From an uncultured Coriobacteriaceae bacterium (GTDB taxonomy: Bacteria > Actinomycetota > Coriobacteriia > Coriobacteriales > Eggerthellaceae): a stretch of 36,225 nucleotides of DNA. The stretch's first letter is position 1; every line of letters begins with the position of its first letter. Below, in pieces: positions 32,064 through 36,198 of this stretch. A program made the translations under genes and the position numbers. The stretch lies in assembly GCA_902764575.1 (NCBI GenBank), contig CACWWI010000023.1, positions 1-36,225 of the forward strand, read 5' to 3'. Below the pieces are notes generated by a model. The model was not told the origin of the DNA and searched no databases. It worked only from the letters and a program-made list of their open reading frames with translations.

Positions 32064-33806
32064 ATGGCCGCGGCTGGTGTCGAGGTGCCCTATGGCGCTC
32101 GGATGGCGATGGAGCCCATCGCGCTGACCGTCCGCTACACCGGTGCCGGCGCGACCGAAGCAGCAGAGGAGCAGCGCGATGTGTTCGCGCCCTTCGAAAC
32201 CGCAGAGCTTGCCGTGGAGGCGCAGTTCGATGGCGAGGTGATCGAGTTCGCCGCCACGCCCAAGGCGCCCATGCGCATTGATTTCGCGCAGGTGAAGTTG
32301 CGCCATGCGTTTTCGACCGATGAGCTGGTGCTGATGAACGGCTACCAGTCGTGGACCGATACGCGCGAGATGCCGGCCTGGGAGCGGATGAAGGGCCTGC
32401 GCGGCGTGCCGAAGGGCGCCGTGTCGAAGTGGGCGCTCGACGGCGGCGGCGACTACTCGTTCGTGCAGTACACGGGCAAGCGGGGCGAGCAGCACGGTTT
32501 CACGTACGCGACGTTCCGCCGCGACGAGGGCATGGTGCTCGTGGGCTCGCTCGACGAGAGCCACGGCTTCACGTTCATCCGCGCGGACGCGAACGTGGGC
32601 GAGGTCACGCTCGAAACCGAGACGCCGCCACGGGAGCTTCCCGCTGGCGAGCGCGTGGTGCTGGGCCGCTACGCCATCTGCCGCGGGACGCTCGACGAGT
32701 GCTACGACCGTTGGTTCGAGCTGTCGGGCATTCAGGCGCGCCCCGTTAAGCCGCTCGTCGGCTACACCAGCTGGTACCGCCACTACGGCGACATCACCGA
32801 GGAGAAGCTCCTGGGCGATTTGACCGAAATCGACACGAAGGGCACGCCGGTCGTGGCCTCGATCGGCAAATGGGCGCACCGGATGTTCCAGATCGACGAC
32901 GGCTACTGCAAGGTGGGCGACTGGCTCGATGTGAACAAGGACGACTTCCCCCGGGGCCTTGCCCCGCTGACCGACGAGGTTCGGGAAAGGGGCTTCATGC
33001 CCGGCCTGTGGGTGGCGCCGTTTTTGTGCGAGCGAGAGTCGCGCCTGTTCGAGGAGCACCAGGACTGGCTGCTGCGTGACGAGGCGGGCGAGCTGGTGCG
33101 GACGGGGCCCCAGTGGTCGGGCGGCTATGCCCTCGACACGCTCAACATCGAGGTGCGCAGCTATGTGCTGGAGGTGCTGCAGACGATGACGCTCGAGTGG
33201 GGCTTCGACCTGCTGAAGGTCGACTTCCTGTTCGCGGCGTGCATGGTGCCCCACGGCGGCAGGAACCGCGGCGAGCTCATGGCGGACGCCATGCAGCTGC
33301 TGCGCGCGGGAGTGGAAGACAGCACGCTCATCCTGGGATGCGGCGTGCCGTTGGGCAGTGCGTTCGGCATCGTCGACTACTGCCGCATCGGGTGTGATGT
33401 GGGCCTCGACTGGGACGACTCGCTCTACATGCGCGGATTGCACCGCGAGCGCGTGTCGACCAAGCTCTCGCTGCGCAACACCCGGGCGCGCGCACCGCTC
33501 GACGGCCGCGCGTTCGGCAACGACCCCGACGTGTTCTTCCTGCGCGATGACGTGAAGCTGACCGAGGAGCAGCGCGATGAGCTGCTGTTCGCCAACGCCA
33601 GCTACGGCAGCGTGCTCTTGACGAGCGACGACAAGGACCAGTGGACCAAGCACATGCGCCGGCGCTACAACGACGCGCTGCGCGTGCTGTGCGGGCGGTT
33701 CGCCCCCGAGCTACTCGACGAGTTGAACGAGACGATGCCGACGCACGGCGTGGAGCCGAGCCGGGGCCGCCGCCTCCTCCCGTTCTCGAAGGGGAGGGCG
33801 AAATGA
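32064..33806 (+). CDS. Alpha-galactosidase, glycoside hydrolase family 36
   Basis: Encodes 580 residues with no signal peptide, so probably cytosolic. It has an N-terminal beta domain (about 1-220) and a TIM barrel starting at VGYTSWYRHYGDI. The nucleophile is Asp387 in LLKVDFLF and the acid/base Asp445 in CRIGCDVGLDWDD, the canonical GH36/clan D pair. Other substrate-site motifs, QIDDGYCKVGDW, GLWVAPFLCERESRLF and GGYALDTLN, are present. The length is near the shorter GH36 group (T. maritima GalA, 552) rather than the 720-residue group. It should release galactose from imported alpha-galactosides. The stop overlaps the galK start by 4 nt (ATGA). Confidence 0.92.
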   Translation: MAAAGVEVPYGARMAMEPIALTVRYTGAGATEAAEEQRDVFAPFETAELAVEAQFDGEVIEFAATPKAPMRIDFAQVKLRHAFSTDELVLMNGYQSWTDTREMPAWERMKGLRGVPKGAVSKWALDGGGDYSFVQYTGKRGEQHGFTYATFRRDEGMVLVGSLDESHGFTFIRADANVGEVTLETETPPRELPAGERVVLGRYAICRGTLDECYDRWFELSGIQARPVKPLVGYTSWYRHYGDITEEKLLGDLTEIDTKGTPVVASIGKWAHRMFQIDDGYCKVGDWLDVNKDDFPRGLAPLTDEVRERGFMPGLWVAPFLCERESRLFEEHQDWLLRDEAGELVRTGPQWSGGYALDTLNIEVRSYVLEVLQTMTLEWGFDLLKVDFLFAACMVPHGGRNRGELMADAMQLLRAGVEDSTLILGCGVPLGSAFGIVDYCRIGCDVGLDWDDSLYMRGLHRERVSTKLSLRNTRARAPLDGRAFGNDPDVFFLRDDVKLTEEQRDELLFANASYGSVLLTSDDKDQWTKHMRRRYNDALRVLCGRFAPELLDELNETMPTHGVEPSRGRRLLPFSKGRAK

Positions 33807-34942
33807 GGACTGTCCGCGCGTTTGCCCCCGGGCGCACCGAGATCGCGGGCAACCATACCGACCATCAGGGCGGCCGCGTGGTCGCCGCGGCCGTGTCGTG
33901 CGGGGTGGAGATGCGTCTGGAGCCCCGTGCCGATGGGCGCGCGCACGTCGAGAGCGAAGGCTTCGCGCCGTTCGAGATTGCCCTGAGCGACGATGCCGCG
34001 CGCGTCGACGAGCGGGGTACCACCCGTGCGCTCGTGCGCGGCGTGGTCGCGGGCCTGCGCGGGCGCGGCGTGCCCGTTGAGGGGTTCCGCATGAAGGCGA
34101 GGAGCACGGTGCCCTCGGGCGGCGGCTTGTCGTCGTCGGCCGCCTTCGAGCTGGCGCTGGGCGCGGGCCTCGAGGCGCTGTTCGCCGGCGAGGGTGCCGA
34201 GCCTGCGGGCGCGGTCGGCCTGTCCGTTGTTGGCCAGGCGGCCGAGCGCGACTACTTCGGAAAGCCCTGCGGGCTCATGGATCAGCTGGCCGTGGCGTGC
34301 GGAGGCGTGTGCGCCTTCGATTTCGGGGATGCAGCCCAGCCCGCCATCGAGCAGATCGACTTCAGCTTCACCGACCACGGCTATGCGCTGTGCCTCGTGG
34401 ACACCCATTGCGACCACAGCCGGTACACGGACGAGTACGCCCAGGTGGCCTACGACATGAACGCCGTCGCCTCGTTCATGGGCGTGCCCGTTCTGTCCCA
34501 GGTGCCCGAGGCGGCGTTCATGGACCGTTTCGAGGTCGTGCGCGCAGGGCTCGGCGACCTGCCGGCGCTGCGCGGCTTGCACTACTACCACGAGATGAGC
34601 CTCGTAGACGAGCGCATCCGGGCTATGAAGGCGGGCGACATCGCCGCCTTTCTGGACGCGACGCGCCGGTCAGCCGCCTCGTCGGCCCAGTACCTGCAGA
34701 ACGTTTCGACGTCCGACCGTGCGAGCCAACCCGCCATGGTGGCCCTCGCCCTGTGCGACCGGTTCCTCGAAGGCGAAGGCGCCGCCCGCATCCACGGCGG
34801 CGGCTTCGGCGGCTCCATCCAGGCCTTCGTCCCCACCGACCGCCTTCCTTTCTTTAAAAAGCAACTTGACGAGCACCTAGGCAAGGCCTCATGCCAAACC
34901 TACGAGATCGCCCCAGAAGGCGCCCGAGCCGAATGCTTGTAA
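33803..34942 (+). CDS. galK: Galactokinase
   Basis: Encodes 379 residues. It phosphorylates galactose at C1, the first Leloir step. GHMP motifs are intact: APGRTEIAGNHTDHQGG (motif 1, in the divergent TEIAGN form rather than VNLIGE), VPSGGGLSSSAAFE (motif 2, ATP loop), GLMDQLAVACGG (catalytic Asp) and IHGGGFGGSIQAFVP (motif 3). The start overlaps the alpha-galactosidase stop by 4 nt, with GGGGAGGGCG upstream, so translation is coupled. galT follows 176 nt downstream, separated by a large inverted repeat. Confidence 0.95.
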   Translation: MRTVRAFAPGRTEIAGNHTDHQGGRVVAAAVSCGVEMRLEPRADGRAHVESEGFAPFEIALSDDAARVDERGTTRALVRGVVAGLRGRGVPVEGFRMKARSTVPSGGGLSSSAAFELALGAGLEALFAGEGAEPAGAVGLSVVGQAAERDYFGKPCGLMDQLAVACGGVCAFDFGDAAQPAIEQIDFSFTDHGYALCLVDTHCDHSRYTDEYAQVAYDMNAVASFMGVPVLSQVPEAAFMDRFEVVRAGLGDLPALRGLHYYHEMSLVDERIRAMKAGDIAAFLDATRRSAASSAQYLQNVSTSDRASQPAMVALALCDRFLEGEGAARIHGGGFGGSIQAFVPTDRLPFFKKQLDEHLGKASCQTYEIAPEGARAECL

Positions 34943-34973
34943 GAGTGAAAAAGCCCCCTAAACCGTTAACGTA

Positions 34974-35085
34974 GCCTGGGTCGGCGGGGTGAAGGGCGGA
35001 GCGAGGTCAAGCGAAAATCGTCTAAGAGACCTTGGCTCGTGCGATTTTCGCGTCGAGCGCAGCCCTTCACCCCGCCGACCCAGGC
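34974..35085. repeat. 112-bp nested inverted repeat between galK and galT
   Basis: The outer arms, 34974-34997 and 35062-35085, are perfect 24-bp reverse complements. Within, 35011-35020 (GCGAAAATCG) pairs with 35042-35051 (CGATTTTCGC), leaving a 21-nt loop. Alternative stems also exist: GAGC-GGTC (34999-35008) with GACC-GCTC (35028-35038), and GCTCG (35035-35039) with CGAGC (35054-35058), which enclose GCGA/TCGC. No T-run, no obvious target-site duplication, no ORF. It may be a dispersed palindromic element (REP/MITE-like) or an mRNA structure separating galK and galT; the remaining 30 nt of the gap each side hold the galT SD and nothing else evident. Confidence 0.9.
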
Positions 35086-35118
35086 GGACGAGCAAGAATA
35101 GAGTTCGAGGAGTTCCCC

Positions 35119-36198
35119 ATGGCAGCCAACACAATCGACACCAACGCTTTCTACCAAGAGAGCTGCGAGGCCAACTACGTAAAGGTCTCGGACATTGCAC
35201 GTAACGTTGCTTGGACCACCCCCACTGAGTGGGGCGACCTGCAGATCACCATCAACCTGTCGAAGCCCGAGAAGGACCCGCGCGCCATCGCGGCGGCCGC
35301 CAAGGCGGGCCCGTCGGAGAAGCCGGACTACGTGGACCCGGCGACGGGCCGCACGCGCCCGTGCCCGCTGTGCGTGACGCAGGAAGACGTCGACTGCGGC
35401 TATGCCAGGCGCCTCGACCTGGCCGGCGACCAGTGGGCGCTGTGGTACAGCCCCTACGCGTACTACAACGAGCACTGCATCGCCATGAGCTGGGAGCACC
35501 GCCCCATGCACATCGACCGCTCGGCGTTCGAGTCGCTCTTCGACGTGGTGGACGTGCTCCCCGAGTACTTCTTCGGTAGCAACGCCGACCTGCCCATCGT
35601 GGGCGGCTCCATCCTCTCGCACGACCACTACCAGGGCGGCAGGCACGTCTTCCCCATGGAGGTGGCGCCGCTTTCCGAGTCGTTCGACCTGCCCTCGTTC
35701 GCGGGCGTGCAGGCCGGCATCGTGAAATGGCCCCTGAGCGTCATCCGCCTGCGCGGCGCCGACCGCGCGCAGGTCATCGGTGCCGCGTGCGCGATCCTGG
35801 ACGCGTGGCGCAGCTACGACGACCCGCGGGTCGGCATCGTGTCGCACACGGGCGAGACGCGCCACAACACCATCACCCCCATCGTGCGCATGAAGGGCGA
35901 CCAGTACGAGATGGACCTCGCGCTGCGCTGCAACATCACGAGCGAGCAGCACCCGCTCGGCGTGTTCCACCCGCACGAGGAGCTGCACCACGTGAAGAAG
36001 GAGAACATCGGCCTCATCGAGGTCATGGGCCTGGCCATCCTGCCGCCGCGCGTGCAGCAGGTGATGGAAGAGCGCGGCATGTCGCGCGACGACGTGGGCC
36101 GCGTGTTCGGTCAGGTGCTCGAGCATGCAGGCGTGTTCAAGTGGGATGCCGAGGGCCGCGCAGCTTTCGGGCGCTTCATCGCCCAGCTGAACGGCTAG
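35119..36198 (+). CDS. galT: UDP-glucose-hexose-1-phosphate uridylyltransferase, type 2 (short form)
   Basis: Encodes 359 residues. It exchanges UMP between UDP-glucose and galactose-1-phosphate. The sequence matches the Firmicutes-type enzyme: EANYVKVSDIARNVAWTTP, DLQITINLSKPEKDPRAIAA, PCPLCVTQED, SPYAYYNEHCIAMSWEHRPM, GSNADLPIVGGSILSHDHYQ with the active-site HDH motif, HNTITPIVR and NIGLIEVMGLAILPPR. The family, for example Bacillus GalT, is about 500 residues and has roughly 110-140 helical N-terminal residues before the first block; these are absent here. GAGGAG lies 6 nt before the ATG. An in-frame extension to a TTG at 35032 would start inside the inverted repeat and is unlikely. Both catalytic halves are complete. 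Confidence 0.9.
   Translation: MAANTIDTNAFYQESCEANYVKVSDIARNVAWTTPTEWGDLQITINLSKPEKDPRAIAAAAKAGPSEKPDYVDPATGRTRPCPLCVTQEDVDCGYARRLDLAGDQWALWYSPYAYYNEHCIAMSWEHRPMHIDRSAFESLFDVVDVLPEYFFGSNADLPIVGGSILSHDHYQGGRHVFPMEVAPLSESFDLPSFAGVQAGIVKWPLSVIRLRGADRAQVIGAACAILDAWRSYDDPRVGIVSHTGETRHNTITPIVRMKGDQYEMDLALRCNITSEQHPLGVFHPHEELHHVKKENIGLIEVMGLAILPPRVQQVMEERGMSRDDVGRVFGQVLEHAGVFKWDAEGRAAFGRFIAQLNG

Follow-up and report, generated by a model that had tools for sequence, protein, structure and literature searches.

The 112-bp palindrome between galK and galT in an uncultured Coriobacteriaceae bacterium is probably a dispersed, non-autonomous DNA element of the REP/REPIN kind, one of a family found in the Eggerthellaceae, and its presence between these two genes is best explained by an insertion confined to this lineage. 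Assignment to the REP/REPIN kind rests on a GYAG motif that marks the foot of the hairpin in 36 of 84 elements, on tandem arrays of half-elements, and on the fusion of elements to the GTAG-tagged REP of a RAYT in G009, the relative richest in copies. Here, “the window” is the whole 36,225-nt stretch of DNA that was analyzed, G000 is the genome from which it comes, and the genus sample consists of 15 genomes.

The palindrome in the galK-galT gap

The left outer arm of the window copy, GCCTGGGTCGGCGGGGTGAAGGGC, is an exact reverse complement of the right outer arm at 24 of 24 positions, and the two arms enclose a 10-bp inner stem (Table 1); both features had been described in a sequence-only reading of this DNA and are borne out. 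The element is slightly longer than the 112 bp originally delimited, as feet common to other copies flank it on both sides. RNA folding of positions 34960-35100 gave -86.5 kcal/mol, compared with -49.8 +/- 4.0 kcal/mol for shuffled sequences (z = -9.1), and the fold energy was matched by 0 of 200 dinucleotide shuffles. In the minimum-energy fold of the window copy, the inside of the element is paired differently from the comparative model, which supports a predicted single long rod with the 10-bp stem as P2. Nothing resembling a terminator or a sigma-70 site was found at positions 34800-35250; the sequence-only reading had already judged that the element, lacking a T-run, is not a simple terminator.

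Table 1. Position of the palindrome, its parts and the neighboring operon genes in the window
Feature	Position	Strand	Remarks
MFS transporter gene	ends 32062		Operon member, upstream of the melibiase-like gene
Melibiase-like gene	32064-33806		Operon member, upstream of galK
galK (GHMP kinase)	33803-34942	+	Upstream neighbor; gene call; Pfam PF00288, PF10509
Left foot GTAG	34971-34974	+	Present in the window copy; final G doubles as first arm base
Left outer arm P1	34974-34997	+	20 nt variable + GGGC; perfectly complementary to 35062-35085
Conserved core, short type, GGAGCGAGGTCAAG..GAGACCTTGGCTCG..CGTCGAGCGCA	34998-35061	+	About 97% identical to copy L257 (G009:C16)
P2 inner stem, left side, GCGAAAATCG	35011-35020	+	Pairs with 35042-35051
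P2 inner stem, right side, CGATTTTCGC	35042-35051	+	Pairs with 35011-35020
Right outer arm P1'	35062-35085	+	Perfectly complementary to 34974-34997
Right foot GGACGAGC	35086-35093	+	Most window-genome copies have GG[AG]C[AG]AG after the right arm
galT (galactose-1-phosphate uridylyltransferase)	35119-36198	+	Downstream neighbor; Pfam PF02744, PF01087

The other junctions of the operon, from the MFS transporter gene through the melibiase-like gene to galK, are as tight as the sequence-only reading had noted. The element was absent from the galK-galT gap of all 11 relatives in which galK precedes galT and the gap could be read. Repeats of a different, ATGAGT type occupy this gap in G004 (L119) and G006 (L112), which raises the possibility that small palindromes land in this gap repeatedly.

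A family of dispersed palindromes

Used as a query, the 112-bp element gave many partial matches within its own genome. A covariance model built from 35 elements then identified 19 copies in G000, 45 in G009 and fewer in the others, amounting to about 110 related elements across 11 of the 15 genus genomes after a few opposite-strand double matches were dropped. Short-core forms occur in Adlercreutzia, Enterorhabdus and further Eggerthellaceae genera, as well as in G002 and G006; the named carriers are rumen and gut Coriobacteriaceae/Eggerthellaceae MAGs, Adlercreutzia faecimuris JBNU-10 and Enterorhabdus sp. P55. According to gene calls from a simple codon-usage caller written for this analysis, 113 of 114 elements are intergenic and one lies inside a called gene. 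The family is thus both multi-copy and located between genes, as expected of a dispersed extragenic palindromic repeat. The many intergenic copies in this genome and in relatives, with a conserved core and feet, support the earlier suggestion of a REP or MITE-like dispersed repeat. No Rfam family scored above its gathering threshold, with only microRNA hairpin models appearing, far below threshold. A search of viral contigs with one conserved pattern gave no match, and a literature search found no paper on such repeats in Eggerthellaceae. Within the searches made, the family is new and undescribed.

Each element consists of a core, GGGCGNAGCGAGGTYAAGCCAAAGG...GTCGAGCGNAGCCC, held between copy-specific outer arms and often carrying an extra terminal hairpin (ACTTTT..CGCC/GGCG..AAAAGT). 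The window copy is of the short-core type, without this hairpin. From the outside in, the order is the foot (GYA followed by G), the variable arm, GGGC, an internal loop, P2, the optional terminal hairpin, and then the mirror side, which ends in a right foot of GGAC or GGGC. Arms are mostly 15-36 bp long and cores about 63 to 94 nt, and in the window genome most copies have an arm whose variable part measures 20 nt. The internal loop contains conserved purines, GNAGCGAGG opposite CGAGCGNA, which, judging from the alignment columns, could form tandem G·A pairs. P2 covaries (GAGATCC/TTAGCTC, GAGACCC/TTGGCTC, GAAATCC/TTAGTTC), and other short-core copies have GCAAAATTTG/CAAATTTTGC, GTAAAAAACG/CGTTTTTTAC and more.

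Elements also form arrays, in which left halves with a period of 68-70 nt, each with its own 20-nt arm, are followed by a full element and then by right halves (about 51 nt in G000 arrays). In G000, half-element arrays lie beside full elements on C4, C9, C10, C14, C47, C60, C129 and C238; because many of them are at contig ends, the arrays are probably longer than assembled. Other compound forms were also seen. In one G000 copy (L062, C137:1-260) the right core is split by about 88 bp that hold further small hairpins, and three G009 loci (L243, L236 and L083) are right-half arrays with a period of about 71 nt and a GTAG-tagged REP in every unit.

Conserved cores with unrelated arms

Long perfect DNA stems are usually ascribed to conserved ends or to selection on RNA. 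Elements of this family were retrieved through their core sequence, with the arms then measured by extension. Watson-Crick pairs accounted for 948 of the 977 arm positions in the first 55 elements, a proportion that measurement by extension biases upward, and nine elements had arms shorter than 13 nt. The alignment of 35 elements had 98.8% of its cells paired, with 98.3% for the outer pairs; these percentages describe well-armed copies, since most aligned elements were selected for arms of at least 14 nt. It contained 280 two-sided changes, compared with 78 when shuffled, with changes on both sides at 17 of 18 outer pairs, and pairing over the whole structure fell to 35-45% when one side was slid by 1-3 columns.

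Despite this complementarity, arm identity between copies is only 37%, compared with 32% expected from composition. Among 18 pairs of elements with cores 97-100% identical, mean arm identity was 0.54, compared with 0.48 for shuffled arms; only two of these pairs had arms that were more than 80% shared, and in one pair the cores were identical and the arms unrelated. The closest comparison for the window copy is L257 in G009, whose core is nearly the same (Table 1) and whose 36-bp arms have one mismatch and are unrelated to those of the window copy. The converse case is found at L051, also in G009, where two inverted neighbors have common arms and different cores. Because near-identical cores are flanked by unrelated yet almost perfectly complementary arms, comparison of the copies indicates that the arms must change, by replacement or rebuilding, separately from the core.

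Genomic sites and orientation

The core of L257 lies between argB and argD in G009, antisense to both genes, and no element was found at the same place in the other genomes, including G000. Across the 114 elements, 35 are sense and 38 antisense with respect to transcription, with 13 between convergent and nine between divergent genes. On the element strand, unpaired arm cells comprise 45 G:T and 19 A:C combinations (p = 0.002, for copies that are not fully independent). A G:U excess was considered as a signal of a sense RNA and set aside, as it was mostly antisense in the first 55 elements and present in both contexts in the 114 (9:5 for sense and 20:9 for antisense). Selection on mRNA accounts for the excess less well than does hairpin formation by a single DNA strand or a strand bias in mutation.

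Two sites are common to more than one genome. An element lies upstream of a gene for a 2-hydroxyacyl-CoA dehydratase subunit in G000, G004, G005 and G008, at the same place and in the same orientation, with arms that differ in sequence and length among the four species; this counts against the insertion reading and suggests long residence or a hot spot. The second site is common to G000:C98 and G009, where the arms are partly alignable. At such orthologous sites, an element may have stayed for long while its arms turned over, or insertion may have happened more than once. The genomes compared yielded no excision, no fresh insertion and no empty site from the same species; comparison of target sites, in which no target duplication was seen, was limited by intergenic sequences of other species that are too diverged to align.

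Relationship to known repeats and to RAYT and Y1 genes

REPs and REPINs are thought to be mobilized as single-stranded hairpins by RAYT (Y1 HUH) enzymes, which read the GTAG foot and the hairpin (PMC8266576, PMC3116915). In the REPINs of Pseudomonas fluorescens SBW25, the spacer of the hairpin may vary in sequence but keeps its length and its pairing, through compensatory changes (PMC3116915). The family described here resembles those REPINs in being dispersed and extragenic, in its long hairpin, in its clusters, and in the compensatory changes in the free part (PMC3116915). However, the arrangement is reversed: REPINs have conserved 16-mer ends and a variable middle, whereas the present family keeps its middle and varies in its outer arms, so that two conserved inverted REPs bounding a variable spacer were not found. 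Further differences are the arms, mostly 15-36 bp long with almost perfect pairing, and the lack of any RAYT tied to the family. Similarly, the family shares a GYAG foot in many copies, intergenic location and compound arrays with GTAG-tagged REPs (PMC3733652, PMC8266576), and its G009 members are often fused to the GTAG-REP of a RAYT, as in TnpA-REP/RAYT systems. Unlike GTAG-tagged REPs, whose stems of 6-13 bp close a short loop, its members mostly have stems of at least 15 bp and a large conserved core, fewer than half carry the foot tag, and the G009 RAYT occurs in that one carrier only. Left halves, full units and right halves, together with spacers of their own, make up mosaic arrays that recall bacterial interspersed mosaic elements (BIMEs); BIMEs are built of alternating short REPs, whereas the units here are halves of one large hairpin. 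Like MITEs, the elements are short, non-autonomous, palindromic and dispersed, but the terminal repeats of MITEs are conserved and match a transposase, while the arms here are not conserved.

In G009, elements occur next to the REP of a RAYT. A GTAG-tagged REP lies within 60 nt of 12 of 35 G009 elements, on the right side and in one orientation in 11 of the 12, and many of the joints are at GGAC, in the place of the right foot. Crowding in gaps could account for the number of adjacent REPs by itself, but not for their constant side and junction. The same REP adjoins a Y1 transposase gene (G009:C22:180832, 173 aa), and at this RAYT locus short GCCGCC-TTC-GGCGGC hairpins are joined to the GGAC-REP in place of arm-core-arm. 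No relatives of the G009 RAYT were detected in the other genus carriers, including G000, and a cognate RAYT flanked by the same repeat as the family was not found in genus carriers. Y1 genes are present in 12 of the 15 genus genomes. G000 has two Y1_Tnp genes, L127 (C42:4174-4503) and L139 (C96:4967-5296), and each is accompanied by its own, different family of short palindromes (ATGAGTC..CCCC/GGGG..GACTCAT and CTCCCCGCGGGAAATCRGTTTCCCGCGGGGAG). A Y1/RAYT enzyme was rejected as the general mobilizer, as the G000 genes accompany other REP families and the GTAG RAYT occurs only in G009. A separate G000 hairpin (L149, C11:8449) has the family feet (GTAGC..GCGGACAAGC) and arms of about 30 bp around an unrelated core of about 50 nt. 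Together with the G009 RAYT locus, this hairpin is suggestive of cores inserting into ready-made hairpins, in what are few cases.

Alternative explanations

Two explanations invoke a functional RNA. The sequence-only reading had raised the possibility of an RNA element that sets the galK:galT ratio, which would be a cis-acting attenuator, processing site or riboswitch. The very stable fold, the sense orientation within a transcribed intercistronic gap and the covariation of stems across the family are consistent with such an element. However, no such element stands in the gap of the 11 relatives, a near-identical core in G009 is antisense to argB and argD, between which it lies, the family is unbiased in orientation with a G:T excess not tied to the transcribed strand, and the genes neighboring the copies are functionally unrelated. 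These data leave little probability for the proposal; the window element is probably not an RNA switch of the galactose operon, although it may have a local effect on galK:galT expression. Covarying stems had been put forward as the mark of a cis-regulatory RNA, and the strong covariation found here in a dispersed element does not discriminate. The other possibility is a dispersed structured noncoding RNA, either an sRNA or a protein-binding RNA, that spread through the usefulness of the RNA. Conserved unpaired loops with possible tandem G·A pairs, covarying helices, and retention of the core at orthologous sites in four species argue for this explanation. It is nonetheless improbable, given the lack of an Rfam family or of a promoter-like site near the window copy, and given that the very few one-sided arm changes, and full arm turnover on an unchanged core, are unlike RNA drift.

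An intrinsic transcription terminator is the least credible explanation. While a GC-rich stem does lie downstream of a stop codon, it has no T-run, no terminator match and a long structured loop, and members of the family are found in both orientations between co-directional genes. A more serious alternative is a variant of the dispersed-repeat reading, in which the arms drift fast and are kept perfect by template switching between them, while the cores are homogenized by gene conversion. Template switching makes and mends perfect stems (PMC8794818). The variant would also accommodate the orthologous C98 and G009 copies, with arms diverged but partly alignable, and the two inverted G009 neighbors that share arms and differ in core. 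On the other hand, cores are identical over about 90 nt and arms are at chance similarity, so that conversion tracts would have to end at the arm boundary without flanking homology, and the largely constant arm length of 20 nt in the window genome also argues against drift. We consider this variant possible but doubtful.

A possible mechanism and its implications

Under the preferred reading of a dispersed REP/REPIN-type DNA element, the element would spread as a single-stranded hairpin of its own (+) strand. A putative enzyme, perhaps of the HUH/Y1 type, would read the core loops and the foot, and the arms would need only length and pairing. The arms could be remade during insertion, as a perfect inverted copy or from the target, or they could arise through template switching during replication; identical cores with unrelated arms would favor fold-back or target copying at insertion. 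We tentatively propose, as a model with well under an even chance of being correct, that every insertion equips the core with fresh, perfectly complementary arms, some 20 bp long in this lineage, which might be produced, for example, through inverted-repeat copying of the target or through fold-back synthesis. As for the galactose operon, the window copy, if it acts at all, would most likely do so passively, as a highly stable transcript hairpin with the potential to shield galK mRNA or to lower galT expression.

Selection on RNA does not readily explain why near-identical cores, in both orientations to transcription, carry unrelated but perfectly paired arms, and the contrast suggests that palindromes are made or renewed by a process at the DNA level. 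It also means that strong stem covariation alone is no proof of a functional RNA. With more than 100 natural replicates, the family offers material for studying how such arms originate. If the proposal of new arms at each insertion is true, this would be a “self-palindromizing” element, with a transposition chemistry not yet described.
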